NCBI RefSeq assembly: GCF_000507185.2
Contig: NZ_AYTM02000002.1
Coordinates: 5,677,501 to 5,741,500 of the forward strand
Reading direction: 5' to 3'
Length of the DNA: 64,000 nt
Origin: Pseudomonas syringae KCTC 12500
GTDB lineage: Bacteria > Pseudomonadota > Gammaproteobacteria > Pseudomonadales > Pseudomonadaceae
How positions within the stretch are numbered: the stretch's first letter is position 1; each line of letters opens with the position of its first letter. The notes beneath the pieces are model-generated. The model searched no databases, was not told where the DNA came from, and saw only the letters and a list, made by a program, of their open reading frames with translations. Below, piece by piece: positions 31,701-51,066 of the stretch. Both the position numbers and the translations under genes were made by a program.

Positions 31701-32522
31701 TCAAGGCAACGGGTCGAACTTCAATTCGCTGAGGCTTTGCACCTTGTCTTCGCGAACCATCTTGTATTCGGTGTTCGGGCCGATCCAGTGCGCCCAGATT
31801 GCGTCGATCTCGCCTGCGGCTTCCATTTCGCGCAGTGATTCGTTGACCTTCGCCAGAAAATGGCGCATGCCGGCACCAATGGGCTCAAGCGCCATCGGTT
31901 CCTTGGCGATTGCCAATTCCACGCCGCCAGCCTTGGCCTGCCCGACCAGCTTGATCGCAGTCATGGTGTTGGTCACCAGGCCCACCACCTTGTTCTGTTG
32001 CAGTGCCATGTAGGCAGAGCCGGTGTCCTGGAAGGTCACTGGCGTTGCGTCAGCCAGGCGGATCGACTGCTCGGACGTAGAGCCTTTGGTCGAACTGATG
32101 CGTTTGCCCTTGAAGAACGATTTCGGTTGATCGGCATTCGCCGCACGAACTACCAGTGTTTCCTTGGCGATGTAGTAAGGGTCGCTGAACTGGATCTGCT
32201 CGGCACGGCTCTTGGTGTAAGCCAGGTTGGCGAAAATCACATCCACGCGGCCCATTTTGACTTCCGGGATACGTGCTTCGACCGACAGCGGCTTGAGTTC
32301 CAGCTCCACGCCCATGTGTTTGGCCAGGGCTTTGCACAGATCGACGTCCATGCCCACCAGTTCGCGGGTTTGAGGGTCCGGTGCCGAGAACGGCGGAACG
32401 TCGGCGTACACCCCACAGCTCAGGCTTTTCTTGCTCATCACATCGCTGAGCTGATCGGCATGGACCGCTGAAACAGCCAACGGCGACAACGCCAGTGCAG
32501 CCAGTACAGACTTGATACGCAT
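31701..32522 (-). CDS. Amino acid ABC transporter, periplasmic binding protein
   Basis: The 273-residue protein has a signal peptide (to about residue 22, AVHA/DQL) and the family 3 solute-binding fold: GVYADVPPFSAPDP, GMDVDLCKALAKHMGV, IFANLAYTKSRAEQIQFSDPY. Such proteins bind polar amino acids or similar small charged compounds and deliver them to a two-permease/ATPase importer. It is the last gene of a leftward four-gene importer set. ATG at 32522 has CAGGAG upstream. Specificity cannot be read from sequence; context suggests a lactam or amino acid handled by the PxpABC-type enzymes upstream. Confidence 0.9.
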   Translation of the reverse strand: MRIKSVLAALALSPLAVSAVHADQLSDVMSKKSLSCGVYADVPPFSAPDPQTRELVGMDVDLCKALAKHMGVELELKPLSVEARIPEVKMGRVDVIFANLAYTKSRAEQIQFSDPYYIAKETLVVRAANADQPKSFFKGKRISSTKGSTSEQSIRLADATPVTFQDTGSAYMALQQNKVVGLVTNTMTAIKLVGQAKAGGVELAIAKEPMALEPIGAGMRHFLAKVNESLREMEAAGEIDAIWAHWIGPNTEYKMVREDKVQSLSELKFDPLP

Positions 32523-32574
32523 GGTGAGACTCCTGGAAATGAATTGAGTGATTCGCTGAAATCAGTGCCTGCGC

Positions 32575-33312
32575 TCAGTGGCTGCGCAGGTCGGCAATGA
32601 AGCGCTGGGCACGCGGATGGCTCGGTTGCTGAAAGAACACCTCAGGGCTGGATTTTTCGAGGATCTGCCCCGCGTCCATGAACCAGATGGTGTCGGCCAC
32701 TTCCCGGGCAAAATTCATCTCGTGGGTGACGCACATCATGGTCATGCCCTCTTTGGCCAGGCCTTTCATGACACTGAGCACCTCGCCGACCATTTCCGGG
32801 TCGAGTGCGCTGGTGGGCTCGTCAAACAGCATGACGGGCGGCTCCATGGCCAGCGCACGGGCAATCGCTACACGCTGCTGCTGGCCACCGGACAACTGCG
32901 CCGGATAGGCACCGGCCTTGTGTGCCAGCCCTACCCGATCCAGCAACTCCATGGCGCGGGCGCGCGCTTCGCTGCTCTTCAGGCCACGGACCTTGGTCGG
33001 GGTCAGAATGATGTTGTCGAGCACCGACAGGTGCGGAAACAGATTGAAACTCTGGAACACGAAACCCACGCGGCTGCGCAGCCGGTTGACGTTGGCGTCG
33101 GTGCCGTTCACGTCACGGCCATCAAACAGGATCTGGCCTTGCTGCACGTCCTCAAGACGATTGACGGTGCGAATCAGCGTCGACTTGCCCGAGCCTGAAG
33201 GCCCGCACAGCACCACCACTTCGCCGCGCTGCACCTCAGCGGTGATATCGGTCAGGGCCTGGTACTCGCCATACCATTTATTGATCCTGGAAAACATGAT
33301 CATCGGATGCAT
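32575..33312 (-). CDS. Amino acid ABC transporter, ATP-binding protein
   Basis: The 245-residue protein has Walker A (GPSGSGKST), the signature motif LSGGQQQR and Walker [15 protein letters not shown], all typical of polar amino acid importers. ATG at 33312 has GAGG eight bases upstream. It follows the two permease genes and precedes the binding-protein gene. It powers import across the inner membrane. Confidence 0.93.
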
Positions 33313-33322
33313 TGGGCAACCC

Positions 33323-34063
33323 TCAGTTATCGGTAGTCAAAGACCGGGCAACGGGCACAGGCGATACATCGCCTTCACGTTTGCGGGCAATCCGCTGCTC
33401 CACCACCCCGGCGAGACGGGTCAGGCCGTAGCACAGCACGTAGTAAGTGATCGCCAGGATGAAGAACACCTGAAACGGCTTGGTCAGCAGCTGGTTATTG
33501 ATCTGATTGGCGGCAAAGGTCACTTCCTGGACGTTGATCACGTAGCCCAGCGACGTTTCCTTGATGATCGAAATGAACTGGCTGATCAGGCTCGGCAAGG
33601 CGTTGTACAGCGCCTGCGGCAGGATTACCCAGATCGTGGTGCGCAGGTAGCCCATGCCCAGTGCGCGTGAGGCTTCGTACTGACCGGTGGGCAGCGCCTG
33701 GATAGCGCCGCGGATGATTTCGCACAGATAGGCGCTCTGATAGACCACCAGCGTGCAGAGCATGGTGGTGAAGCCGGTGATGTTATGGCCGATCAGCAAC
33801 GGAACCAGAAAGTAGGTCCAGAAAATCACCATCAGCAGCGGAATTCCGCGCATCACATAGACCCAGACCGTCGCCGGGTAGCGCAGCCAGCGCCACGGTG
33901 AAACCCGCGCCAGCGACAACAGCAGCCCCAGGGGAAAGGCCAGCAAGAGTGCCAGCGCCGCCAGCATCAGTGTCGAGATCAGGCCGCCCATCGGGCCATG
34001 GGGGTATTGACCGACCAGCAGCAAGGTCCAGTTATCGCGAACAATCGTGAAGACATCGAACAT
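33323..34063 (-). CDS. Amino acid ABC transporter, permease 1
   Basis: The 246-residue membrane protein has about five helices and the EAA-loop typical of HisM/GlnP permeases ([32 protein letters not shown]). The short intergenic distance (10 bases to the ATPase gene, 6 bases to the other permease) shows one operon. It pairs with the other permease gene to form the channel. Confidence 0.92.
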
Positions 34064-34069
34064 CGCCGC

Positions 34070-34771
34070 CTACCTCGCCATGGCTTTGCTGAACTGCCGG
34101 GCCAGCAACGCGCCCAGGCCCATCAGCATCAGTGAAATGGCCAGGTAGACCACGGTTGCCACCAGATACGCTTCGAAGGTGCGGAAGGTATAGTTCTCGA
34201 CCTCGCGGGTGGCATAAGTCAGCTCCACCACGCCGATGGCCATGACCAGACTGGTGTTCTTGAACAGCAGGACCGTGTGATTGATCAACGACGGCAAACA
34301 GTTGCGAACCCCTTGCGGCAGGATGACGTAGCGCATCGAACGCACATAGCCCAGGCCCAGGGCACGCGACGCCTCGACTTGCCCGGCCGGAATCGCGCGC
34401 AACCCGCTGCGGATGTCTTCACTGAAGTACGCCGCCTGGCAAAGCCCCAGGGCGATGACCGAGAACAGATATTCGGTGCTGTAGTTGGCCAGCCAGATCT
34501 GCGTGCTTTCGGACAGCAACGTCGGAATACCGAAATACCAGAGCATCAGTTGCACCAGTGTTGGCACATTGCGGTGGTAGGACACGTAGGCCGCCACCAG
34601 GCGTTCGGCGTACCTGTTGCCAGTCAGGCGAATCGACACCAGCAGCAGGGCCACCGCCATGGCCAGACACCAGGCAACCAAGGCCAGTTGCAGGGTCGTT
34701 TCTATGCCCTTGACGATCAGCTCGGCGTACTCGCCCTGCAGGATCGCTGAAAGATCGAATTTACTCGTCAT
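34070..34771 (-). CDS. Amino acid ABC transporter, permease 2
   Basis: The protein has about 233 residues, several membrane helices and an EAA-loop (GLRAIPAGQVEASRALGLGYVRSMRYVILPQG), as in GlnP/HisQ permeases. ATG at 34771 is chosen with GGGA upstream; earlier ATGs at 34789 and 34783 are possible. It is the first gene of the importer set and lies 117 bases downstream of the SDR gene. Confidence 0.9.
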   Translation of the reverse strand: MTSKFDLSAILQGEYAELIVKGIETTLQLALVAWCLAMAVALLLVSIRLTGNRYAERLVAAYVSYHRNVPTLVQLMLWYFGIPTLLSESTQIWLANYSTEYLFSVIALGLCQAAYFSEDIRSGLRAIPAGQVEASRALGLGYVRSMRYVILPQGVRNCLPSLINHTVLLFKNTSLVMAIGVVELTYATREVENYTFRTFEAYLVATVVYLAISLMLMGLGALLARQFSKAMAR

Positions 34772-34888
34772 GGTTGTTCCCATAGACATTCAGCCAGGGC
34801 AGAAGCAAGGCGCCAGTGGGGCTGGCGCGGGTATGGCATGGCGGCTGGTGCCGCTCTCGTGATGGGTACAGCCCTCGAAGACGCAGCC

Positions 34889-35641
34889 TCAGCCTTCATA
34901 GTCCTGCGGGCGCGCCGTCGACAGCCCGCCGGGTACCTGCAGCGTCGGGGTGATCTCCATGTGGCCGATGTTGACTGCGATGGGCGCGGCAATCACATAG
35001 GCGATCGCATCGGCAATGTCCTTGGCCACAGGCAGCTCATAGCCCTCGATGAAACGCTTGCGCACTTCCTCGGAGTCGCCATGCACGTGGGCGAAGATAT
35101 CCGTCGCCACGCGCCCCGGACAGATTTCGGTAACCCGCACGCGCTTGCCGAAGGCATCGATGCGCAACTGCCGGGACAGCATGCTCACCGCCGCCTTGGT
35201 CGCGTGGTACGTCGAGTTGCCACCGAAGTTGTACGCGGCAGCGATCGAGCTGATGTTGATGATGTGCCCGCAATCACGCTCGACCATCCCCGGCAACGAG
35301 AGCCTGGCAATCTGCAATACCGCGCGCAGGTTCACATCGACCAGCAGATCGATCCCTTCAGCGTCCGCCTTGAGCAGCGAGCCGGGCCGGTCGACGCCGG
35401 CATTGTTGACCACGACATCGAAATGATGGGCCTGAAACAGGGCCGTCAGGCCAGCCAGATCCGTCACGTCGATAGCGTGCGCGATACAACCGGTGCGCTG
35501 CGCCAGTGCCGCCAGCTTGTCTGCACTGCGCGCCAGCGCATGGACCTGCAGACCTTCGGCACACAGCCGCTCGACGACGGCCTCGCCAATGCCGGAAGAA
35601 GCGCCGGTGACCAGCGCGGTTTTGTAATCGGAAAAAGGCAT
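34889..35641 (-). CDS. Short-chain dehydrogenase/reductase
   Basis: The 250-residue protein has the classical SDR signature: TGASSGIG (residues 12-19) for NAD(P) binding, NNAG near 93, Ser in INISSIAA and YHATK for the Tyr/Lys catalytic pair. It probably oxidises or reduces a hydroxy/keto compound in the pathway formed by its neighbours. ATG at 35641 has AAGGAAA upstream. A LysR box (35757-35771) lies 115 bases before its start, separating it from pxpA, so it probably starts a second transcript with the ABC genes. Confidence 0.87.
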   Translation of the reverse strand: MPFSDYKTALVTGASSGIGEAVVERLCAEGLQVHALARSADKLAALAQRTGCIAHAIDVTDLAGLTALFQAHHFDVVVNNAGVDRPGSLLKADAEGIDLLVDVNLRAVLQIARLSLPGMVERDCGHIINISSIAAAYNFGGNSTYHATKAAVSMLSRQLRIDAFGKRVRVTEICPGRVATDIFAHVHGDSEEVRKRFIEGYELPVAKDIADAIAYVIAAPIAVNIGHMEITPTLQVPGGLSTARPQDYEG

Positions 35642-35756
35642 GTCAGGGTTTCCTTGAATAAGCGTCGATCAGCCGCTTACTGTTAATGCTGATCGCCTTG
35701 TACTGGACTTTAACGAGCGTCACGGGCAGCGACCAAGACACAATGGTTGTGTGGCG

Positions 35757-35771
35757 ATAAGCTGCGCTTAT
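35757..35771. promoter_or_regulatory. LysR-type box upstream of SDR-ABC genes
   Basis: ATAAGCTGCGCTTAT is a perfect palindrome (arms ATAAGC and GCTTAT) with T-N11-A spacing. It overlaps the pxpA stop codon and lies 115 bases before the SDR start. Closely similar boxes occur at 40531, 41536 and 41642. Confidence 0.65.
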
Positions 35772-36538
35772 GACCCGAGCAACTGTGAAACAGGGGTGAT
35801 GACACCGCCCTGCTCTTCGATACTCCGGCGAATGCTGCGCGCCAGCTCCACCGCCCCCGGCGTGTCGCCATGCAACAGAATCGACTGGGCGTTGACTGCC
35901 ACACGCTTGCCGCTCAGGGTCGTGACCGTGCCGTCCTGCAGCAGTTGCGCAACCCTGGCCCGGACCTGCTCCGGGTCCTTGACCACCGCACCGGCAATGC
36001 CACGCGGCACCAGCAGACAGTTTTCGTCATAGGCGCGGTCAGCCAGAAAGGTCGTCGCCACCCTCAGATTGCACGCCTCGGCGGCGCTCTCGATGGCCGC
36101 GCTGCTGGATGAGCTGATGATCAATTGCGGGTCAAACGCTGCGACGGCCCTTACCAGAGGCCCGGCCAGTTCGGCATCGGCCGCGGCCATATTGCCCAGC
36201 GCACCGTGAAAACTCATGTGCGTGACGCGGTAACCGGCAGCAGCTGCAAGGCCCGCCAGAGCGCCGAGTTGATACACCACGATGGCGCACAACTCCTTGA
36301 GTTCGATGTTCATCCTGCGGCGGCCGAACCCCTGCAGATCAGGGAAGCCGACATGCGCACCGAGATCGATGCCCAGCGCCTTAGCGCGGCGCACCGTGCT
36401 GTCCATGATCAACGGGTCTCCGGCATGAAAGCCGCAGGCAACGTTGGCCGAGGAGATCAATGACATCAACGCCTCGTCCTCGCCCATGGTCCAGGGGCCG
36501 AAGCCCTCACCCAGATCAGCATTCAGATCAATGCGCAT
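35768..36538 (-). CDS. pxpA: 5-oxoprolinase subunit A-like protein (LamB/YcsF family)
   Basis: The 256-residue protein starts MRIDLNADLGEGFGPWTMGEDEALM and contains SSANVACGFHAGDP and GAHVGFPDLQGFGRR, all conserved in the LamB/YcsF family. In E. coli this subunit works with PxpB and PxpC in ATP-dependent hydrolysis of 5-oxoproline to glutamate. ATG at 36538 has GGAGG nine bases upstream. It overlaps the upstream carrier-like gene by 11 bases, so it is coupled. Membership in a cluster with biotin carboxylase and carrier suggests a related but possibly carboxylation-linked reaction. Confidence 0.88.
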   Translation of the reverse strand: MRIDLNADLGEGFGPWTMGEDEALMSLISSANVACGFHAGDPLIMDSTVRRAKALGIDLGAHVGFPDLQGFGRRRMNIELKELCAIVVYQLGALAGLAAAAGYRVTHMSFHGALGNMAAADAELAGPLVRAVAAFDPQLIISSSSSAAIESAAEACNLRVATTFLADRAYDENCLLVPRGIAGAVVKDPEQVRARVAQLLQDGTVTTLSGKRVAVNAQSILLHGDTPGAVELARSIRRSIEEQGGVITPVSQLLGS

Positions 36539-36950
36539 GGTCATGTTCCTCCAGTTCAATCAGCGGCTGTCCATAACCAACGCGCTCGTTTTCGGCGGCC
36601 AGGAAGCGCAGTACGCGCCCTGCCTGATGACTGCGCACCGGCAGATACAGCAGGCCGATACGCAACAGCCCAAGCAACTGCCCTGCTGCCACTGCATCGC
36701 CGGGTTTCACGTAGCTGTCGCGTTCATCAGGATGACTCGACACAAATACGCCGGGGTTATCGGCGGTTACCACATGGGCAGTCAGCGCAGACTGTTCAGC
36801 GGCAACCTGTGGCGCAGAAGGCGCAGCACAGGCCTGCACAGGCTCGCCACGGCGGATCAACAGCTCGAAACCCGGGCGTTTCAGTTCCAGTACAGTAAGC
36901 CCGGCGTCCCGAATCCATGCTGCCAGCTGGCGAATCTCTTTGATGTTCAT
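36528..36950 (-). CDS. Biotin-carrier-like protein lacking the biotinyl lysine
   Basis: The 140-residue protein aligns over its C-terminal 80 residues with biotin carboxyl carrier domains without gaps: PGDAVAAGQLLGLLRIGLL, then VRSHQAGRVLRFLAAENERVGYGQPLIELE. Where true carriers have EAMKM, it has RIGLL, with Leu100 at the position of the biotin-accepting Lys. It therefore should not be biotinylated. The N-terminal 30 residues resemble AccB starts (MNIKEIRQLAAWIRDAGLTVLEL). It overlaps pxpC by TGATG and pxpA by 11 bases. It may have a structural or lipoyl-like role, or be a decayed duplicate of the carrier at 39994. Confidence 0.8.
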   Translation of the reverse strand: MNIKEIRQLAAWIRDAGLTVLELKRPGFELLIRRGEPVQACAAPSAPQVAAEQSALTAHVVTADNPGVFVSSHPDERDSYVKPGDAVAAGQLLGLLRIGLLYLPVRSHQAGRVLRFLAAENERVGYGQPLIELEEHDHAH

Positions 36951-37921
36951 CAGCGATGTCCTTGCAGGCTGCGCAGCGCGAGCACGCGCCGGGCGTCTTC
37001 GATGAAAGCGTGATTGGTGTCCAGCGCCTCGACCGCCTCGTCGTAACTGCACTGCACAAAACGCACCTTGCTGCCGATCGGTGCCTGTCCAAGGCGCCAC
37101 AGGTCGGCTTCAATGACCGTGGCAAACTTGGGATAACCGCCACTGGGCTGGGCATCACGCATCTGCACGATCGGCTGTCCGCCGTGGGGCACCTGAATCA
37201 CGCCAGGCACGATGCCATGAGAGCGGATTTCCAGCGCCTCGCTCGCAAGCAAGGGCGTGCCCTCCATGCGGTAGCCGTAACGGTTGCTCTGCGTGGTGAT
37301 TTTCCACTCACCGGCAAAAAACGTTGCTTGCGCCTCGGCGCTGAAACAGTCGAATTCGGCAGCCGGCAGCACGCGGATGGCCGGCAGCCCGTCAAGCAAC
37401 AACGGCAAGGCTGCCACCGACGATTGCACCCCGAAATCACTGGCACGCGGCTCATTGGCAGCGCCCGCAGGAATCACATCGCCCTGCTGCAGCGCACGGC
37501 CCTGCCAGCCCCCAAAAGCCCCACGCAATTGCGTACTGCGCGAGCCCAGTACCAACGGCACATCGACGCCACCGGCCAGGCACAGATATACGCGGCTGCC
37601 CATCGTCGGGTAATTGAGCCGCAACACCTGATTCTTGCGTGCCTGGGCAACCCAATTACCCGGCAGCCGCTCACCATCGAGCGACGCAGCGCAGGCGGCG
37701 CCGGTGATCGCAAAGGTGCAGTCATCGACAAATCGCACTTCGAACGGGAACAGCGGAATTTCAATGCCCGCCGCGTCTTCATCGTTGCCCAGCAGCAGGT
37801 TGCCGAGCCGCAGTGACAGCGTGTCCATCGCGCCAGAGGTGCCGACGCCGTAACCCAGGCTGCCGTGCCGTCCCAGATCCTGAACGGTCGCCAGTGCGGT
37901 AGCGCTGATAACTTCGATCAT
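36950..37921 (-). CDS. pxpC: 5-oxoprolinase subunit C-like protein (biotin-dependent carboxyltransferase family)
   Basis: The 323-residue protein starts [20 protein letters not shown] and has SGAMDTLSLRLGN, VYLCLAGGVDVPLVLGSRST and PHGGQPIVQMRDAQPSGGYPK, all typical of PxpC/KipA proteins. With PxpB it forms the ATP-dependent part of 5-oxoprolinase and resembles the C-terminal urea-carboxylase module. Its start overlaps the pxpB stop (ATGA), and its stop overlaps the next gene's start. The start is ATG at 37921. Confidence 0.88.
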   Translation of the reverse strand: MIEVISATALATVQDLGRHGSLGYGVGTSGAMDTLSLRLGNLLLGNDEDAAGIEIPLFPFEVRFVDDCTFAITGAACAASLDGERLPGNWVAQARKNQVLRLNYPTMGSRVYLCLAGGVDVPLVLGSRSTQLRGAFGGWQGRALQQGDVIPAGAANEPRASDFGVQSSVAALPLLLDGLPAIRVLPAAEFDCFSAEAQATFFAGEWKITTQSNRYGYRMEGTPLLASEALEIRSHGIVPGVIQVPHGGQPIVQMRDAQPSGGYPKFATVIEADLWRLGQAPIGSKVRFVQCSYDEAVEALDTNHAFIEDARRVLALRSLQGHR

Positions 37922-38589
37922 CGGATGATCCTCTCGATGCGCAAGCGCAGTTGATCGCCGGGTTGCAATAGCGCCGGAGGCTGCTGACCCGCATCAAAAA
38001 ACACCATCTCCGTGCGTCCTATGGTGTTCCAGCCACTGGGGCCGGCCGAGGCGGAAATACCTGTCTGAACGCCACCAATGGAGACCGACCCGGCACCGAT
38101 ATCGAGTACCGGCACCTTGCGCCGCGGCGTCGCCAGGCGCTGGTCCATGCCGCCCAGGTAGCAATAACCCGGATGGCTGCCCAAGGCGTATACCGGGTAC
38201 AGCGGCTCGCAGTGCAGATTGGCGATGGTTTCGATATCAAGCCCGGTGTGGGCGACGACATCAGCCATGTGCGGGCCGCCATCACCGCCGTACACCACCG
38301 GCAATTCAATGATCCGGCCTTGCAACGGCAGCGGCTGGCACTGCTCCCAGGTCTCCAGCAAACGGTTTTTCAGACCGGCCAGGTCCCGCGGTGGCGCTGC
38401 GAAGGTCAGCATCAGGTTGTTCATCCCCGGCACCGCCTCGCGTACCTGCGGCCAGTCCCTGCTCAGACGGGCCAGTGCCCATATCCGTTGCTGCGGTGCC
38501 AGGTCGAGCTCGCCGGGTGCTTCGAACAGCAACGCGGTGGTTCCCAGCAAGGTGATTCTTGGCGCATTCGGCGCCTGCACGAGGGTCAT
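37918..38589 (-). CDS. pxpB: 5-oxoprolinase subunit B-like protein (KipI family)
   Basis: The 223-residue protein has the family features [45 protein letters not shown] and [21 protein letters not shown]. KipI/PxpB acts with PxpC. ATG at 38589 overlaps the stop of the biotin carboxylase gene by 4 bases (ATGA). The position directly after accC ties the 5-oxoprolinase-like subunits to a biotin carboxylase. Confidence 0.87.
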
Positions 38590-39938
38590 GGGTGGCTCCT
38601 TGTCTGCAACCAGCGCTCCAGGTGATGAATGTCCATGCCACCCTTGCAGAACACCGGGTCCTGCAGAATGTCGCGATGCAGCGCGATGTTGGTAGAGATA
38701 CCCTCGACGTGCATTTCACTCAGTGCCAGACGCATGCGTGCCAACGCCTCATCGCGACTGGCGCCATGGGTGATGACCTTGGCCACCATCGAATCGTAAT
38801 AAGGCGGAACGCGGTAGCCGTGGCTGACATGCGAATCGACCCGCACACCGAAACCACCGGGGATCTGCCAGCGAGTGACCAACCCCGGCGTCGGCATGAA
38901 GCTGCGCGGGTCCTCGGCGTTGATCCGGCACTCCAGCGAATGGCCCGAAACGCGTACGTCGGCCTGACTGAAACTCAGGCGCTCGCCCATCGCCATGCGG
39001 ATCTGCTGCTGGACAATGTCGATGCCGGAGGTCATTTCCGTTACCGGGTGCTCGACCTGCAGGCGGGTGTTCATCTCGATGAAATAGAACTCATCCTTTT
39101 CGAAGAGGAATTCGAACGTGCCGACGCCCTGATAGCCCATCTGGCGGCAGGCCTGTGCGCAGCGCCCCCCCACCTTGGCCATCAATGCTGCGTCGATGCC
39201 GGGTGCAGGCGCCTCCTCAAGGACCTTCTGGTGGCGGCGCTGCATCGAGCAATCCCGCGAGCCGAGCCAGACGGCATTGCCGTAGGCATCGCATAACACC
39301 TGAATCTCGACATGGCGCGGCTGACCCAGAAACTTCTCGATATACAACTCGGGATTGCCGAAGGCGTGCCGGGCTTCTTCGCGGGTCAGCGCAATGGCAT
39401 CGAGCAACTGAGACTCTTCCTGAACCACGCGCATACCCCGCCCTCCGCCGCCGCCTGCGGCCTTGACGATGACCGGGTAGCCGATGTCGCGAGCGATTTG
39501 CACGATGCTTTGCGCATCGGCGGGCATGCTGGTGTCCGGACCGGGTACGCACGGCACGCCAGCCTCGCGCATCGCCCGCTTGGCTGCGACCTTGTCGCCC
39601 ATCACCCGAATGCACGCAGCGCTGGGGCCGATGAAGGTCAGGCCAGCCTGCTCGATGCGTTCGGCGAACGCGGCATTTTCAGACAGAAACCCATAGCCGG
39701 GATGGATCGCCTGAGCACCGGTCAGCTGCGCTGCATAGAGCACGGCCGCCTGATTCAGATAACTCTGCCCCGCTGCGGCAGGACCGATGCACAGCGCTTC
39801 GTCTGCCTGTTGTACATAACCGGCATCGCGATCCGCTTCGGAATACACCGCGACCGTACGCAGGCCCAGGCCCTTGCAGGCGCGCTGTATGCGCAGGGCG
39901 ATTTCGCCGCGATTGGCGATCAACACTTTATCGAACAT
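38586..39938 (-). CDS. Biotin carboxylase (AccC-type)
   Basis: The 450-residue protein starts [20 protein letters not shown], contains the ATP-grasp glycine loop GGGGRGMR and [17 protein letters not shown], and has normal AccC length. It carboxylates the biotin of a carrier protein at the cost of ATP. ATG at 39938 has AGGGG upstream. It lies between the carrier gene (39994) and pxpB, so it probably serves this cluster and not fatty-acid synthesis, whose own accBC is usually elsewhere. The carboxyl acceptor enzyme would be the PxpBC-like pair. Confidence 0.92.
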
Positions 39939-39993
39939 CAAAAACCCCTGATCGGTGAATCCGCAAGACGCTCTGCAAGGCAGCTCAAGACCA

Positions 39994-40440
39994 TCACGCA
40001 ATACTGAACAGCGCCTGACCGGCCTGAACTTCTTCGCCATTGGCAACCAGAATGGCAGTCACGACCCCTGCCGCTTCGGCCTTCACCGGATGAAACATCT
40101 TCATGGCCTCGACCACGGCCAGGGTCTGCCCCACCTCGACGGACGTGCCGATCTCGACGAAAGGCGGCTGGTCAGGTGCCGGTGTCAGGTGCAACACCCC
40201 GTACAGCGAAGCGCAGGCCTGTGTCTGTTGCACGGCGGCCGTCGTACTTGCCTGAACCGCAGAAACAGGGCGCGCTGCGGGCATCGTCTGCGCTGTCGAA
40301 ACAGCCGGATTGGCGCGATTGGCGACCTGAGCGGGCTCGCGCAGCAAACGCAGCTGCGCGTCGCCTTCACACAGGCTCAGTTCGCTCAGGTCCGATTCGG
40401 CCATCAGGTCGATAAGTGCTTTGATACGTTCCGGTTTCAT
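39994..40440 (-). CDS. Biotin carboxyl carrier protein (AccB-type)
   Basis: The 148-residue protein has an N-terminal region, an Ala/Pro/Gln-rich linker (45-75) and a C-terminal biotinyl domain with the canonical [17 protein letters not shown] (biotinyl Lys114). ATG at 40440 has AAGGG upstream. It is the first gene of the carboxylase/Pxp operon. A LysR box lies 90 bases before its start (40531-40545). It would hand a carboxyl group to the carboxyltransferase components encoded downstream. Confidence 0.9.
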
Positions 40441-40530
40441 GCAACAGCCCTTGCCTGGCAAATGAAATGTGGCTGAGGGCAATGTAACGAGGCAGGTTTT
40501 TGACCGCCAAGACGGTTTGACTGTGGGGTG

Positions 40531-40545
40531 ATAAGCGCCCCTTAT
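40531..40545. promoter_or_regulatory. LysR-type box upstream of the carboxylase/Pxp operon
   Basis: ATAAGCGCCCCTTAT has arms ATAAG and CTTAT around CGCCC, with T-N11-A spacing. It lies 90 bases upstream of the carrier gene start and 11 bases past the LysR stop. Confidence 0.65.
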
Positions 40546-40555
40546 GACGTCGCGA

Positions 40556-41467
40556 TCATTGCGTACGGCGGTTGCCGCGCATTTCCGCGACCAGCTCCAG
40601 AAGGATGGCCTTGACCGCCTGGGCCGGCACCGACAGCGGCAAGTGCCCGGAAAGGCACAGCGCGAGAGGTGCTTCGATTTCTGGTTCGACAATGCGGCTC
40701 AGGTTGACCGCATGCGTGTCTGCCAGCACCCGTGCAGCAGACTCGGGAAGAATGGTCGAGCCGAATCGATCGGCCACTGCTGCGGCCAGCGTCGTCGAAG
40801 ATTCGACTTCTGCGACCACCCGGGCACTGCGTTCGATACGCACAAATGCCTCGTCCACCAGACGCCGGACAGTGTTGTAGGTGCGTGGCAACAGCAGGTC
40901 GATATCGGCAAGCTCGCTGAGCGGAATTTCCTCGCGGCCCTGAAGCACCTCTTCGGCACTCACCAGGTACAGTTGCTCGCGTATCAACGGCACGAAACTC
41001 AGGCCATGCACCTCTCGCCCGCCATAGAGAACGGCCATGTCCATGCGCCCGTTCATGATCAACTCGCTGAGGGTGGTGCCAAAGTTCTCATTGAGGTACA
41101 GCAGAATGCCCGGATGACGCTCGCGTACGCGTTTGAGCAACGGCAGCGACAGCGTCGAAGCGGCAGTGCCGGGTGCCAGCCCTACCGACACAGGCCCCGA
41201 TAACGCCAGACCGCTGGCGTTGACGTCACTCTGCGCCTGCTCGCACTGGCGCAGGATCACCTGAGCATGCCCGTACAGCACCTTGCCCGCCTCGGTCGGG
41301 GTGACGCCGCGCTTGGTGCGGATCAACAACTGTTGCTGCAGCTCGGCCTCCAGCGTCACCAACTGCTGGCTCAGCGCAGGTTGTGCGATGTGCAGCACAT
41401 CGGCGGCCTGGGTCAGGCTGCCAATGTCGACAATTTTCACGAAATATTTCAAACGGCGAAGGTTCAA
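40556..41467 (-). CDS. LysR-family regulator of the carboxylase/Pxp locus
   Basis: The 303-residue protein starts MNLRRLKYFVKIVDIGSLTQAADVLHIAQPALSQQL, resembling Nac/CbI-type LysR proteins, followed by an effector domain. The start is TTG at 41467 with GGAG nine bases upstream. It lies between a leftward carboxylase operon and a rightward aminotransferase operon. Four similar ATAAG...CTTAT boxes at 35757, 40531, 41536 and 41642 lie before the units I assign to it, including its own. It is the natural candidate for controlling all of them. Confidence 0.87.
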   Translation of the reverse strand: MNLRRLKYFVKIVDIGSLTQAADVLHIAQPALSQQLVTLEAELQQQLLIRTKRGVTPTEAGKVLYGHAQVILRQCEQAQSDVNASGLALSGPVSVGLAPGTAASTLSLPLLKRVRERHPGILLYLNENFGTTLSELIMNGRMDMAVLYGGREVHGLSFVPLIREQLYLVSAEEVLQGREEIPLSELADIDLLLPRTYNTVRRLVDEAFVRIERSARVVAEVESSTTLAAAVADRFGSTILPESAARVLADTHAVNLSRIVEPEIEAPLALCLSGHLPLSVPAQAVKAILLELVAEMRGNRRTQ

Positions 41468-41535
41468 GGTCGTGCACTCCAGAGTCGCGATCAGGAGGCT
41501 TCAGCAAGACCCAGGCCAGCTCCAGAAAACCAGAC

Positions 41536-41550
41536 ATAAGCAATTGCTAT
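41536..41550. promoter_or_regulatory. LysR-type box upstream of the LysR gene
   Basis: ATAAGCAATTGCTAT has the ATAAG half-site, a near-match CTAT end and T-N11-A spacing, with a palindromic centre AGCAATTGCT. It lies 69 bases before the LysR start and suggests autoregulation. Confidence 0.5.
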
Positions 41551-41641
41551 GTCAGTCTCCGCTGATCGGGTTTGTCAGGCGCTGATCCCCCTGCAACCAT
41601 TGCCCGCCCGGTTTTGGTGCGACGCTGGTTCATCTGCGGTC

Positions 41642-41656
41642 ATAAGCGCTGCCTAT
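41642..41656. promoter_or_regulatory. LysR-type box upstream of the aminotransferase operon
   Basis: ATAAGCGCTGCCTAT matches the boxes at 35757 and 40531 (one mismatch in the second arm) and keeps T-N11-A spacing. It lies 86 bases before the GTG start at 41743. Confidence 0.6.
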
Positions 41657-41742
41657 CAACCCAGAACGAACTCGTCTTATGGCGAGCGCTTCGCTGGCTC
41701 GTAGCGTATTCCTCATCAAGGCCATCAACGAGGAATGCCAAC

Positions 41743-42951
<1,209 letters not shown>

Positions 42952-42961
42952 GCACCTCGGC

Positions 42962-44554
42962 ATGACGACGCCGAGCCATCCAGCCCTGACCTTCAAACAG
43001 GCGTTGTTGGCGATGTTTGGCATATCACTGGTGCTGGGCCTTTCCGCGCTGGATCAGACGGTCATCGGCAACGCACTGCCAAGCATCGTCGCCGAGCTCA
43101 ACGGTTTCGAGCTGTACGCCTGGGTCGCCACCGGCTATCTGCTGGCCTCTATCGTGACCATCCCGATCTTTGGCCGGCTGGGCGATTTTTACGGGCGCAA
43201 ACCGTTCGTGCTGGCCGCAACAATCATCTTTACGCTGGCCTCGCTGCTCTGCGCACTGGCAGACAGCATGTTGGTGCTGGTGATCGGGCGAGCCTTGCAA
43301 GGCGTGGGCGGCGGCATGTTGATCGGTACCGCCTTTGCCTGTGTGCCCGAACTGTTTCCCGACACCCGCCAGCGGCTGCGCTGGCAGGTGTTGCTGAGTG
43401 CCATGTTCAGCGTGGTCAATGCCATCGGCCCAGGATTGGGCGGTTATCTGTCCGGCGAGTTTGGCTGGCGTTCGGTTTTTTGGTTGAACCTGCCCCTGGG
43501 CGTGGTTGCCTTGTTTTTTGCCTGGCGCTTTCTGCCGTGGTATCGCCCGCAAGGGCATCGAGCCCATTCTGCCGGTGCGATCCGGCTCGACTGGCTCGGG
43601 GCTTTATTGATCGTACTGACGCTGGGCAGCCTGCAATTGTTCGTCGAATGGCTGGGCCAGCGTTCTCTGTCCGTCAGCCTGACCTGTGGCGCCGTGACCC
43701 TCGCGGCCATGGCCGGCCTCTGGTTCCAGGAGCGCCGCTGTGCCTTTGCCTTGCTGCCCGCCGGACTATTCGCCAACCGCAGCATCCGCCTGCTGTTCAT
43801 CATGTCGCTGCTGGCCGGCGCCATCATGTTCACTCTTCTTTTTTATCTGCCGCTGCTCTTGCAGGGCAGCTACGGCTACTCGCCAAAAGACGCAGGGTTA
43901 CTGCTTACCCCGCTGGCGCTGAGCATTACGCTGGGCGCCATCGTCAACAGCCGGATCGTCACACGCATGGCCAACCCCAACCGGCTGCCGGTCGCCGGGT
44001 TTGCTGCGTTGTCAGTCGCCTGCATTGCCCTGGCACTGGTCGGGCTGCATGCCGGGTTCAGCACCTTGCTGGGGCTCATTCTGCTGGCGGGGCTGGGGCT
44101 GGGTTTCATTCTGCTCAACCTGACCGTATTCACCCAGACGCTCGCCGAACGGCAATTTCTCGGTATCGCCACGGCACTGACGCAATCCTTGCGACTGGTC
44201 GGCGGTTTGCTGGGTACGGCGGCCATGGGCGTGCTGGTCAAGCTGCTGTATGTCACCAACCTGCAAAGTGCGCTGAACGCAGCAGGTCAGGCGTCGGCCT
44301 TACCGCGCTTGGCTGACCCTCAGGTTCTGCTGCAGCACACGCCTGCCAATGTCGATGCGGCGCTGCTGATAGCCCGCACCGCCCTCGCCCAGGCGGTGGG
44401 CACGGGGCTGCTGACGTGCGCCGGGCTGGGCGTGCTCGCGCTGCTGGTTCTGCATCGTCTGCCTCGCGTCGAGCTTCATCGAGTGCCCGGTGCAACAACG
44501 CCTGCAACGGATTCATGTGTAACACCTGCGCCTGAAAAACAAAAAGAAACCTGA
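42962..44554 (+). CDS. DHA2-family MFS transporter
   Basis: The 530-residue protein has fourteen predicted helices and the family motifs LDQTVIGNALPSIV (motif D1) and GRLGDFYGRKP (motif A). DHA2 proteins are mostly drug or metabolite/H+ antiporters, so it may export rather than import. ATG at 42962 has a weak ribosome-binding site; tight spacing to the aminotransferase gene suggests coupling. It belongs to the rightward unit under the box at 41642. Confidence 0.85.
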   Translation: MTTPSHPALTFKQALLAMFGISLVLGLSALDQTVIGNALPSIVAELNGFELYAWVATGYLLASIVTIPIFGRLGDFYGRKPFVLAATIIFTLASLLCALADSMLVLVIGRALQGVGGGMLIGTAFACVPELFPDTRQRLRWQVLLSAMFSVVNAIGPGLGGYLSGEFGWRSVFWLNLPLGVVALFFAWRFLPWYRPQGHRAHSAGAIRLDWLGALLIVLTLGSLQLFVEWLGQRSLSVSLTCGAVTLAAMAGLWFQERRCAFALLPAGLFANRSIRLLFIMSLLAGAIMFTLLFYLPLLLQGSYGYSPKDAGLLLTPLALSITLGAIVNSRIVTRMANPNRLPVAGFAALSVACIALALVGLHAGFSTLLGLILLAGLGLGFILLNLTVFTQTLAERQFLGIATALTQSLRLVGGLLGTAAMGVLVKLLYVTNLQSALNAAGQASALPRLADPQVLLQHTPANVDAALLIARTALAQAVGTGLLTCAGLGVLALLVLHRLPRVELHRVPGATTPATDSCVTPAPEKQKET

Positions 44555-44611
44555 CTGCCGCCTGACTCTGCCTCTCAAAAAACACTTAATTACAGCATGA
44601 GGATGAATCCG

Positions 44612-45943
44612 ATGGAGCGTATCAATCGCGCCGCCCCTTTCGTTGCGGGCTTTTGTGGTCTGCTGATCGCTCAGCAGAGCTACGCCGAAGGTTTTCTGGA
44701 GGACAGCAAGGCCAGTATTCTTGCGCGCAACTTCTTCAGTAACGCAGATAACCGCAGCGGCGCTGCCGACCCGAACTACACGCAGGAGTGGGGCCAGGGC
44801 TTCATGCTCAACTACCAGTCGGGCTATACGCCAGGCACGGTGGGCTTCGGTGTCGATGCACTCGGCCAGTTGGGCATTCGTCTGGACTCGGGCAAAGGCC
44901 GTCACTACAACCCGCAAAGCACGGCGTTCAACGGCAATATCTTCCCCACAGACAGCGACGGTCGTGCGGTCGACGAGTTCAGCAGCCTGGGGGCAACGCT
45001 CAAGGCACGCGTCTCCAAAACCGAACTGAAATACGGCACGCTGGTGCCGATGCTGCCGGTGGTGATGTCCACCGACCGTATGTTGCAACAGACTTTTCGT
45101 GGCGGGCAGATTCAGTCTGGCGACCTGAAGGACTTCACCTTCACCGCAGGCCAGCTGGAACATGTCATGGGCCGTGGTTCGACCAATCAGATGGGTATGT
45201 CGATTCCGGGTGCAAACAACCCGCTGACCGGCGAGTTCGTCAACAAGTTCTACTACGCAGGCGTCGATTACAAACCGACCAAAGACCTGACCTTGCAGTA
45301 CTACTACGGCAACCTGGAAAACTTCTACAAGCAGAACTTTCTGGGCCTGAAATACGACATGCAACTGGGCCCAGGCACCCTGCGCACCGACCTGCGCCAT
45401 TTCGACAACCGCTCGGACGGCGCCAACGGTCACGACCCGGCGTTCTACACAGTGGGTTATTACGGCAACGGCGTCACCAAGGGTGAAGTCGACAGCCGCC
45501 TTTCCAGCGCCCAGTTCACCTACCTGATCAATGGCCACACCTTCGCTGCGGGTTGCCAGGCCGTGACCGGTGACAGCGATGCGGTCTGGCTGAATCAGGG
45601 TGACGGCTCGACTGCCTACTTCATGACCGAGTCAATGATCGGTAAATTCCAGCGCGCCGGAGAACGTACCTGGCAGGTTCGCTACGGCTATGACTTCGCC
45701 AGACTGGGCGTACCGGGTCTCAACTTCCTGGCAATGTATGAAAGCGGCTCGAACATCCAGACGTCCGACGGCGACAAGAAGGAGTGGGAGCGCAACGTCA
45801 CCCTGAGTTATGTGGTGCAGTCCGGCCCGGCAAAGAACCTCAGCATCGCGCTACGCCACGCGCAACTGCGCACCGAATTCGCCAGCCAGCGTGATTCCGA
45901 TGAGCACCGGGTGATCGTCAGTTACCCGATCAATATTTTCTGA
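44612..45943 (+). CDS. OprD-family outer-membrane porin
   Basis: The 443-residue protein has a signal peptide (cleavage near SYA/EGFLEDS) and the OprD pattern: SKASILARNFFSNADNR, QEWGQGFMLNYQSGYTPGTVGFGVDALGQLG, and a C-terminal beta strand ending in F. OprD porins take up small acidic or basic nutrients such as amino acids or aromatic acids. ATG at 44612 is chosen because AGGA lies eight bases upstream, over ATG 44597. It is 57 bases after the DHA2 gene and ends before a terminator. Confidence 0.92.
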   Translation: MERINRAAPFVAGFCGLLIAQQSYAEGFLEDSKASILARNFFSNADNRSGAADPNYTQEWGQGFMLNYQSGYTPGTVGFGVDALGQLGIRLDSGKGRHYNPQSTAFNGNIFPTDSDGRAVDEFSSLGATLKARVSKTELKYGTLVPMLPVVMSTDRMLQQTFRGGQIQSGDLKDFTFTAGQLEHVMGRGSTNQMGMSIPGANNPLTGEFVNKFYYAGVDYKPTKDLTLQYYYGNLENFYKQNFLGLKYDMQLGPGTLRTDLRHFDNRSDGANGHDPAFYTVGYYGNGVTKGEVDSRLSSAQFTYLINGHTFAAGCQAVTGDSDAVWLNQGDGSTAYFMTESMIGKFQRAGERTWQVRYGYDFARLGVPGLNFLAMYESGSNIQTSDGDKKEWERNVTLSYVVQSGPAKNLSIALRHAQLRTEFASQRDSDEHRVIVSYPINIF

Positions 45944-48379: not shown

Positions 48380-49354
48380 TCAGGAAGGAAACAGTTTGCT
48401 CAGGCACGCCAGCTTCTTCTTGTAGGACTTGCGCGCCACCAGCGCTTCCTCCAGCGTGACGGCCACGAATCGGGCGGTCTGATTGGGTTGCATCTGACCG
48501 ATCAGGTCCAGGTCGGCGCTGATCACCGTGCCGATCATCGCATAGCCCCCGCCCGACACGGCATCACGGTGCAACACAATCGGTTCCAGCCCGGCAGGCA
48601 CCTGAATCGAGCCGATCGGGTAGCAGCTGTCGACGATATTGGACGGATCGGAACCGGCGCCGAAGGGCTGCTCTCTGGGCTGGAAGGTCAGCGCCCTGCC
48701 CCCCTTGAAGCGGTAACCGATGCGGTCGGCTTCCGACCCTACGCTCCAGGGTTCGGAGAAAAAACTGGTGGCGGCAAATTCGGTCAGGCGCTCGTAATAC
48801 AGGCCCGGCACGACCCGCAGATACACTTCCCCGCCCAGCGATTGGCGCAAGGCCATCGGCAGACTGGCCCCGGCGCGTCCCTTGCCGCTGGGTGTGCCTA
48901 TCGGCAGCTGGTCATCAGCGGCCAGTCGGCGACCCTGAAAACCGCCAAGCGCACCCAGCGTGTACGTCGAACGGCTACCCAGTACCAGCGGTACATCAAT
49001 ACCGCCGGCGACGGCCAGATAGGTACGCGCACCGTCCTTGGGGAAGTCGAAACGCAGCACTTGCCCGGCCTTCACCGCAAAGGCGGTGTCGTGGTGCATT
49101 TCCACGCCGTCGAGACGCGCCGCCATGTGCGCGCCGCAGACTGCAGCCAATGTATCGCACTGGAACTCCAGCTCCGGCCCCAGCAGTGTGCATTCAAGCG
49201 CCGCAGCGCCGGGTGGATTGCCGACCAACTGATTGGCGGCGCTGAGGGCATACTGATCGAGCGCACCGGAGGGCGGAATGCCCAAGTGGTAATAGCCCTC
49301 GCGGCCGAGGTCCTGAACCGAGGTGGCCAGACCGGGTTTGAGCACCTTGATCAT
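48380..49354 (-). CDS. pxpC: 5-oxoprolinase subunit C-like protein, second copy
   Basis: The 324-residue protein resembles the copy at 36950: start MIKVLKPGLATSVQDLGREGYYHLG, PPSGALDQYALSAANQLVG, and VAGGIDVPLVLGSRSTYTLG. Its start overlaps the stop of the pxpB copy (ATGA). It is the last gene of a three-gene leftward unit with PxpB and PxpA. No biotin carrier or carboxylase is linked to this set, unlike the first. Confidence 0.88.
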   Translation of the reverse strand: MIKVLKPGLATSVQDLGREGYYHLGIPPSGALDQYALSAANQLVGNPPGAAALECTLLGPELEFQCDTLAAVCGAHMAARLDGVEMHHDTAFAVKAGQVLRFDFPKDGARTYLAVAGGIDVPLVLGSRSTYTLGALGGFQGRRLAADDQLPIGTPSGKGRAGASLPMALRQSLGGEVYLRVVPGLYYERLTEFAATSFFSEPWSVGSEADRIGYRFKGGRALTFQPREQPFGAGSDPSNIVDSCYPIGSIQVPAGLEPIVLHRDAVSGGGYAMIGTVISADLDLIGQMQPNQTARFVAVTLEEALVARKSYKKKLACLSKLFPS

Positions 49355-50223
49355 GCCAGCACCTCCTGCAACGACTTGGGATAGCCCACCGGATCGGCCA
49401 GAAAGGCATCCAGTGAAAACTCGACCGGGCGGATGAGCAGGTCGAAGCGCCCCGCTTCCACCTCTGCGACAGCCTCGTCATAGGCTTGCCGGTCAAGCGG
49501 TTTGAACTGGACGATATCGCCCGGCCGGAAGAACACCATGTGCTCTTTCAGGTAGGCCAGCTTCTGCTGCGGGTCATAGATCGGCGCGGGAGTGACGCCA
49601 AACATCTGATAACCGCCCGCTCCGCGTACCGAATAGATGCAGCCGAAGCAGCCGCCGTGACCGAGTGTGTGCTTGGGCGTATCGGTGCGCGGACGCAGGT
49701 ATTTGGGCACTTGCAGCTGACGCTCGCGCTCCACCATCTGGAACATGAACGGCAGACCGGCGACAAAACCGACCATCGAAACGAACCACGGTGCACCGCT
49801 GTGCGCGGCGATGAAGGCATCGACATCCGCCAGGTTATTGATGCGTGCAGCGTATTCCAGGTCGGTGGAACCGGGGTCTTGATGGCGGTCACGAAAGCGC
49901 ATCAGGGTTTCGTGGGTCCACGGATCGTTGTACAGCACCGGGATTTCGATGATCCGGGTCTGCAGGGTACGTTCTGCGACCGCACCGGCCTCGGCCGCCC
50001 TTACCGCTTCGAGTAAGACGTGTGGTGCGATACGGTCCGGGTCAAAACGAATCTGGAATGACGCGTTGGCCAGGCAAACGTCCAGCACACCATCCAGCGC
50101 CAGACGCTCGACCGCACGGGTCACCGCCAGTCCCTTGAAAAATGCTTCCAGCGACATACTGTCACTGACCTCGGCGAACAAATGTTCATCAGCGCCAAAG
50201 CTGTAGCGAATCGGATCAGCCAT
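49351..50223 (-). CDS. pxpB: 5-oxoprolinase subunit B-like protein, second copy
   Basis: The 290-residue protein starts MADPIRYSFGADEHLFAEVSDSMSLEAFF and has IIEIPVLYNDPW, SMVGFVAGLPFMFQM and HGGCFGCIYSVRGAGGYQMFGVTPAPI, which are KipI-family features. It is longer than the first copy (223 residues). ATG at 50223 is the family-like start; the frame extends to 50298. It is coupled to pxpC and 87 bases from pxpA. Confidence 0.86.
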   Translation of the reverse strand: MADPIRYSFGADEHLFAEVSDSMSLEAFFKGLAVTRAVERLALDGVLDVCLANASFQIRFDPDRIAPHVLLEAVRAAEAGAVAERTLQTRIIEIPVLYNDPWTHETLMRFRDRHQDPGSTDLEYAARINNLADVDAFIAAHSGAPWFVSMVGFVAGLPFMFQMVERERQLQVPKYLRPRTDTPKHTLGHGGCFGCIYSVRGAGGYQMFGVTPAPIYDPQQKLAYLKEHMVFFRPGDIVQFKPLDRQAYDEAVAEVEAGRFDLLIRPVEFSLDAFLADPVGYPKSLQEVLA

Positions 50224-50310
50224 GTCTGTTCCTTTCTTGAAATCGTTGTAGAACGGCAGGCAAAAAATCAGTAACACGGCTCGTGCGTCTGTGCACACGA
50301 TACCTTGGAC

Positions 50311-51066
50311 TCAACGCGGTGCACGCACCTTGATGCCCGCTGCGTCGAGCGCCAGACGTGTCGCTTCTGCAAGGTCCAGCGCGCCCGGCGTGTCGCTGTG
50401 CAGGCAGATCGAATCGAATTCGATGCTCAGGTCCTCACCCTCGACAGTACGCACCAGACCTTGCAGGCACGCGCGCACCACGCGGGCTGCGACTTCGGTC
50501 GGGTCCAGGGCACGTACGTGACGGGTGAAGACGATGGAGCCGCTAAGGTCGTAATCCCGATCAGCGTAGAACTCGCGGATCACCGGCTGGCCCAGTTCCT
50601 CGGCGATCTTGCAGATAACCGAACCGGGCATGCAGTAAAGCAGCAAATCAGGCTCCAGGCGCTGCAGGTTTTCCACCAGCAGGCGTGCTGCGGCTTCGTC
50701 CCTGGCCAGGTGCATGTACAAGGCGCCGTGTGGTTTGAAATGCTGCAAGGCCACGCCCTGCACCCGCGCCAGTTCACGCAGGGCACCCAGTTGGTAGAGC
50801 ATGTCGTCGACCAGCTCCTGGGGCGTCGAGTTGATATGCCGGCGGCCAAAGCCGACCAGATCGCGAAACCCCGGGTGTGCGCCGATGGCAACGCCCAGGC
50901 GTTTCGCCTGCTCGATCGTGCGGCGCATGGTGCCAGGGTCACCCGCGTGAAAACCGGTCGCAACATTGGCGGAGCTGATAAAGGTCATCAATTCAGTATC
51001 GACGCCGTCACCAATAGTCCACGCGCCAAAGCTTTCACCCATGTCCGAGTTGAAATCCACCTGCAT
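50311..51066 (-). CDS. pxpA: 5-oxoprolinase subunit A-like protein, second copy (LamB/YcsF)
   Basis: The 251-residue protein starts [21 protein letters not shown] and contains [19 protein letters not shown] and [15 protein letters not shown]. It is the first gene of the second PxpABC set and is divergent from a LysR gene at 51222. The intergenic region carries an AGATA-CGC-TATCT palindrome. Confidence 0.88.

Follow-up and report, generated by a model that had tools for sequence, protein, structure and literature searches.

A NAC-family LysR regulator linked to a carboxylase/PxpABC gene cluster and a long conserved promoter module in Pseudomonas syringae KCTC 12500

Introduction

The classical NAC of Klebsiella and Escherichia coli is a global nitrogen regulator of the LysR type; its boxes follow the consensus ATA-N9-TAT, its gene has a sigma54-type promoter, and in Klebsiella the protein damps this NtrC/sigma54 promoter itself. 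Here we describe a NAC-family regulator encoded in a 64,000-nucleotide stretch of the genome of Pseudomonas syringae KCTC 12500 (contig NZ_AYTM02000002.1, positions 5,677,501 to 5,741,500; hereafter the window), where its gene, nac, lies among genes for a putative biotin-dependent carboxylase with Pxp proteins, a short-chain dehydrogenase/reductase (SDR) with an ATP-binding cassette (ABC) importer, and an aminotransferase. The window protein belongs to the same NCBIfam equivalog as the Klebsiella and E. coli proteins and has nearly the same DNA-binding domain, and the boxes of its cluster likewise have the ATA-N9-TAT form. Unlike classical NAC, it sits in, and is predicted to control, one gene cluster. 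What is new in this system is a NAC bound to a single cluster, together with an extended, conserved promoter module.

The enzymes of the cluster also resemble described systems. As in the 5-oxoprolinase PxpABC, PxpA and PxpB pass their family models, whereas PxpC remains below the equivalog cut-off and the cluster has additional genes for a biotin carboxylase and carriers. Urea carboxylase is a single long chain; in the window its parts are separate genes, and a PxpA gene is added. According to one study, pxpTABC of Corynebacterium glutamicum is controlled by PxpR (PMC13274462), a GntR repressor, in contrast to the LysR protein in the window. Another study places pxpA, pxpB and pxpC of Pseudomonas protegens Pf-5 among the top hits for reduced root attachment (PMC13390462, Table 1). 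Among the papers listed in our literature searches, mostly from outside subscription journals, none that described a biotin-linked PxpABC system or a regulon of this kind in Pseudomonas stood out.

Results and Discussion

Conserved boxes at three promoters

An earlier note on this DNA had proposed that four LysR boxes tie a carboxylase/Pxp/ABC locus and an aminotransferase operon into one regulon. Our comparison of related loci strongly supports a single LysR regulon over the carboxylase/Pxp, SDR/ABC and aminotransferase operons. All four 15-mers (at 35757, 40531, 41536 and 41642) were found by direct sequence check, and the T-N11-A dyad was present upstream of the target genes. The distances to the start codons were as given for the SDR (115), accB (90) and aminotransferase (86) genes, whereas that for nac was 68 rather than 69. 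ATAAG-N5-CTTAT is exact at 35757 and 40531 and has one mismatch at 41642 and two at 41536. ATA and TAT arms at NAC-type spacing occur in all four boxes, including the two weaker ones. The features concerned are as follows.

40556..41467, minus strand: nac-family LysR regulator, 303 amino acids, TTG start (NCBIfam NF008410)
40531..40545, minus strand: NAC-type box of the accB promoter, exact ATAAG-N5-CTTAT, predicted site
40509..40512, minus strand: TCTT at +33 of the accB module, opening a −35-like stretch (71/71 regions)
40481..40486, minus strand: predicted −10-like TACATT of the accB promoter, 4/6 matches at +59
35757..35771, minus strand: NAC-type box of the SDR/ABC promoter, exact, overlapping the pxpA stop codon, predicted site
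35735..35738, minus strand: TCTT at +33 of the SDR module (70/70 regions)
35707..35712, minus strand: predicted −10-like TAAAGT of the SDR promoter, 4/6 matches at +59
41642..41656, plus strand: NAC-type box of the aminotransferase promoter, ATAAG-N5-CCTAT, predicted site
41675..41678, plus strand: TCTT at +33 of the aminotransferase module (65/67 regions)
41536..41550, minus strand: weak nac-side box of the form ATA-N7-CTTAT

Related loci were collected through nac, and the best 80 of 471 confirmed relatives, with the window added, gave 81 sequences. After exclusion of regions shorter than 20 or longer than 2500 bases, 74 of these yielded at least one compared region (none came from L055, L056, L064, L065, L068, L095 and L102); many loci are closely related, so the counts do not represent independent events. 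In 66 of the 80 loci, nac was followed on its 3′ side by accB-accC-pxpB-pxpC-pxpA-SDR in this order, and 65 of these 66 had the aminotransferase gene divergent before nac; such loci included records of Pseudomonas, Marinomonas, Variovorax, Rhodoferax and Herbaspirillum. The box was exact in every scorable region upstream of accB (71/71) and SDR (70/70). Its one-base variant ATARG-N5-CTTAT, read toward nac, occurred in 67 of the 71 aminotransferase/nac regions and was not found in those of L073, L075, L101 and L105, and the SDR/permease gap, used as a control, contained the box in none of 60 regions. Across the 74 loci, 212 boxes fell within the 51.7 kb of compared regions versus three in the remaining 1.42 Mb; these three belong to L101, L103 and L105, where each is located immediately 3′ of nac and has the downstream TCTT. 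The arms were constant, whereas the inner five-base spacers varied, with 28, 26 and 25 different ones at the three promoters. The nac-accB gap of L038, 796 bases long, was observed to contain two exact boxes.

The longer promoter module

When the three promoters were aligned by their boxes, further shared sequence was recognised, in particular CA at +20 and TCTT at +33, indicating a longer common promoter module that includes the box. The TCTT of the aminotransferase module was absent from both Marinomonas loci. Ten loci that were rearranged, enterobacterial or short contained 18 boxes, of which 16 had TCTT at +33 on one of the strands; the nac-side boxes of L064 and L065 lacked it. A hexamer with 4/6 matches to TATAAT was located at +59 in all accB (39/39) and SDR (37/37) promoters of the Pseudomonas group. 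This hexamer was picked as the best of 12 positions and is therefore weak when taken alone; it was weaker or shifted in beta-proteobacterial accB promoters and at the aminotransferase gene. With transcription starting about 7 bases past the −10 element, the box centre is predicted near −64, the usual position for LysR activators. Box, downstream stretch, one regulator and three operons would together form a testable and unusually complete promoter code, kept in both beta- and gamma-proteobacteria.

The pattern ATAAG-N5-CYTAT-N5-CA-N5-A-N5-TCTT was used to scan the genome with up to three mismatches. Seven matches were obtained, comprising the three window promoters with no mismatch and four other sites with three, compared with 7 per strand for the control pattern. 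No match with 0–2 mismatches was found in the genome beyond the three cluster promoters. Many equally good sites scattered over the genome, which the earlier note had named as evidence against its proposal, were thus looked for and not encountered. Four exact ATAAG-N5-CTTAT sites occur in the 6.15-Mb genome, two of them in the window; the other two (contig 2, 3421526 and 5449924) were set aside, neither being among the seven module matches.

Promoter region of nac

The fourth box of the proposed regulon lies before nac itself, together with two further elements.

41503..41518, minus strand: sigma54-type −24/−12 element TGGCCTGGGTCTTGCT of nac (37/37 Pseudomonas-group regions)
41606..41620, minus strand: degenerate NtrC-like site GCACCAAAACCGGGC, one arm mismatch to the pattern GCAC-N7-GTGC

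A sigma54-type element preceded nac in all 37 Pseudomonas-group regions, versus 1.3% of shuffles, and in both enterobacterial regions. At the other gaps it was found in none of the 71 accB and none of the 70 SDR regions, and in one of the 60 SDR/permease regions. The second, weaker box on the nac side (ATA-N7-CTTAT) occurred in 37 of 37 Pseudomonas-group regions versus 0 of 34 others. Because it is weak, confined to the Pseudomonas group and placed before a sigma54-type element, this box is probably autoregulatory and not equivalent to the other three; the proposed regulon is supported for three promoters. GCAC-N7-GTGC represents the arms of an NtrC site, and it was exact in 23 of the 37 Pseudomonas-group nac regions, 22 of which had the order aminotransferase box, NtrC-like site, nac-side box and sigma54 element. 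This layout resembles the arrangement of the Klebsiella nac gene.

The regulator and its distribution

With NF008410, the NCBIfam model curated for NAC, the LysR protein reached 491.8 bits (cut-off 309), placing it in the NAC family, and its HTH_1 and LysR_substrate domains matched Pfam with 74.2 and 108.8 bits. It shares 53% identity with E. coli NAC, including 54 of the 61 residues of the DNA-binding domain. It is the sole close copy in the genome, the next relative being 31% identical. We rejected the idea that the protein belongs to the common regulatory core of Pseudomonas, as nac was present in 1 of 39 genomes of the family (E up to 1e-80), in 1 of 274 of the class (1e-70, with up to 8 first-look candidates scored per genome) and in 7 of 99 of the genus (1e-70). 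The SDR gene occurred in the same seven genus genomes, indicating that the regulator and its cluster are present or absent as a unit.

Exact boxes averaged 4.57 per genome in these seven genomes versus 1.77 in the 92 genus genomes lacking nac. The excess of about 2.8 corresponds approximately to the cluster's own exact sites, so that strong sites outside the cluster are at background level. Judged on strong sites, from which weaker targets would escape, the genome-wide regulon of a classical global NAC was not found, and the window protein appears to be a cluster-bound rather than a global regulator. In such genomes, the NAC label would thus be a family name and no evidence of a global nitrogen regulator.

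Several side observations concern copies of the gene and stray boxes. The Variovorax loci L084, L088 and L092 carry two extra NAC-like genes upstream of the aminotransferase gene, with approximately 62–65% and 43–45% identity to the window protein. In genome G360, whose nac lies at a place matching L038, a second partial nac match covering residues 130–300 looks like a truncated duplicate. An exact box at position 5027 of L110, in an AT-rich gap before an open reading frame of 716 amino acids, lacks the downstream module and is probably a chance occurrence. The sequence ATAAGCTGTGCTTAT recurs in many genomes of the genus Pseudomonas, mostly those without nac, and represents an unrelated conserved element.

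Regulon model and alternative explanations

We consider it likely that the window encodes a self-contained NAC-family regulon, including nitrogen control and autoregulation. In the mechanism that we infer, the NAC-like protein would bind ATAAG-N5-CTTAT near −64 of three sigma70-type promoters and thereby activate accB-accC-pxpB-pxpC-carrier-pxpA, the SDR gene with its amino-acid-type ABC importer, and the genes for the aminotransferase, a major facilitator superfamily (MFS) transporter and an OprD-type porin. The nac gene would be transcribed from its sigma54-type promoter, probably driven by NtrC under nitrogen shortage, and the weak nac-side box might damp its expression. Under this model, an uncharacterised carboxylase/PxpABC cluster would have a candidate regulator and would probably serve in the use of nitrogen.

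Several observations weigh against the boxes or against this model. In the window, the box gave 12 matches at up to two mismatches versus 7.51 expected, and 6 of 100 shuffles reached 12; in the genome, at up to one mismatch, 36 sites per strand were found versus 57 for a reversed-pattern control. As a test, loose counts at one or two mismatches showed no clear excess over controls in either window or genome and were abandoned. At up to two mismatches, the statement of the earlier note that the regular placement is not expected by chance is not convincing on the window alone; the significance of the boxes depends on the exact sites and the recurrence in related loci. The three perfect module matches were to be expected, because the pattern was built from rows including these sites. 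The −10 hexamer of the aminotransferase promoter is weak, agreeing at 3/6 positions in 36 of 37 Pseudomonas-group regions. At nac, 27 of 30 beta-proteobacterial and other regions and both Marinomonas regions lack the strict sigma54 element. The NtrC-like site in the window deviates by one mismatch, and the NtrC pattern also appears in 9 of 28 beta-proteobacterial and other SDR regions, so that it is not specific by itself.

The same regulon could also be governed by a LysR protein induced by the substrate of the cluster, with nitrogen control absent or secondary. Such induction would fit the LysR substrate-binding domain of the protein, the joint presence of regulator and cluster in the same 7 of 99 genomes with strong sites elsewhere at background, and the beta-proteobacterial nac regions, of which just 3 of 30 have the strict sigma54 element. 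To our knowledge, classical NAC needs no inducer. The sigma54-type element in every Pseudomonas-group (37/37) and enterobacterial (2/2) region and the NtrC-like site, which is exact in 23 of the 37 regions of the Pseudomonas group, speak against substrate induction, which we regard as plausible but clearly short of an even chance.

Far less probable is that another LysR protein of the genome binds the boxes and that nac is merely nearby. The box form ATA-N9-TAT fits the NAC consensus, and the loci recovered have nac next to the boxes, a point qualified by their collection through nac. In addition, the nac and SDR genes share the same 7 of 99 genus genomes, to which the excess of exact boxes is limited. 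What speaks for another regulator is the number of LysR-type matches in the genome (69) and the T-N11-A core, which is common to the LysR family (PMC5002191). The view that the boxes are chance AT-rich palindromes, despite the unconvincing loose counts, can practically be dismissed given three promoters conserved in gamma- and beta-proteobacteria with variable spacers and a module unique in the genome, conservation within the Pseudomonas group being the sole counter to chance for the nac-side box.

Relation to classical NAC

A sigma54-type element, as known from the promoter of classical nac, precedes nac in both Pseudomonas-group and enterobacterial cluster loci. One Winslowiella genome encodes a classical NAC (570 bits, 73% identity to E. 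coli NAC) together with a cluster-linked NAC (508 bits). In phylogenetic trees, from which long or redundant rows had been removed beforehand, classical NAC stood beside the enterobacterial cluster-linked NACs (support 98/95 in two trees and 95/92 in the 36-row tree), thus falling among the cluster-linked proteins. With 36 rows, among them two classical NACs and L142 from Herbaspirillum, the approximately unbiased (AU) test rejected a clade that united the 27 cluster-linked rows and excluded classical NAC (p 0.003). With a better-sampled set of 43 rows, in which eight more classical NACs of the 120 listed were added and L142 was left out, the same kind of clade was not rejected (p 0.24), although the 98/95 grouping was kept. 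The classical global NAC of Enterobacterales might descend from this cluster-bound regulator, a plausible origin to which we tentatively give somewhat less than an even chance. A local carboxylase/PxpABC switch would then have been duplicated, keeping ATA-N9-TAT recognition and sigma54 control while gaining a whole-cell nitrogen regulon. The cluster-bound NAC could offer a testable route to this origin. The E. coli codB promoter, with one ATA-N9-TAT, was also considered and rejected as too AT-rich to serve as evidence.

Operons and predicted enzymes

The three predicted operons are arranged as follows.

35768..40440, minus strand: accB-accC-pxpB-pxpC-carrier-like gene-pxpA (NCBIfam matches)
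31701..35641, minus strand: SDR, two permeases, ATPase and family-3 solute-binding protein (Pfam, NCBIfam)
41743..45943, plus strand: aminotransferase, MFS transporter and OprD-type porin (NF004769, Pfam)

The aminotransferase scored 745.2 bits against NF004769 (cut-off 617), and the MFS and OprD proteins were assigned by Pfam. The accC product passed the AccC model (686.8 vs 626.5 bits), whereas that of accB remained below the biotin carboxyl carrier protein (BCCP) cut-off (101 vs 115.2 bits) while retaining the EAMKM motif; the pair of biotin carboxylase and BCCP both above cut-off that marks acetyl-CoA carboxylase was thus not found. PxpA (subfamily score 332, cut-off 226) and PxpB (185.8, cut-off 145.55) passed their models, whereas PxpC reached 322 of the 500 bits of the PxpC_5OPro equivalog, leaving the full PxpABC 5-oxoprolinase set incomplete. 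The accC, accB and pxpC products matched parts of the urea carboxylase model TIGR02712, with a best score of 497 bits against a cut-off of 1303.85. The enzymes resemble a biotin-dependent carboxylase split over several genes, in which PxpB/PxpC would be the carboxyltransferase, joined by a PxpA amidohydrolase, and the substrate is perhaps an imported lactam-like nitrogen compound or cyclic amide.

A second biotin-carrier-like protein (36528–36950, minus strand) lacks the EAMKM motif and may be a non-biotinylated partner. A second PxpA/PxpB/PxpC-like set was observed at 48380–51066 (minus strand), in which the PxpA subfamily score (299.4, cut-off 226) and that of the PxpC-like protein on TIGR00724 (273, cut-off 230.2) exceeded their cut-offs, while the PxpB-like protein (64.8 bits) fell below 145.55; this set may represent a second lactam-type enzyme.

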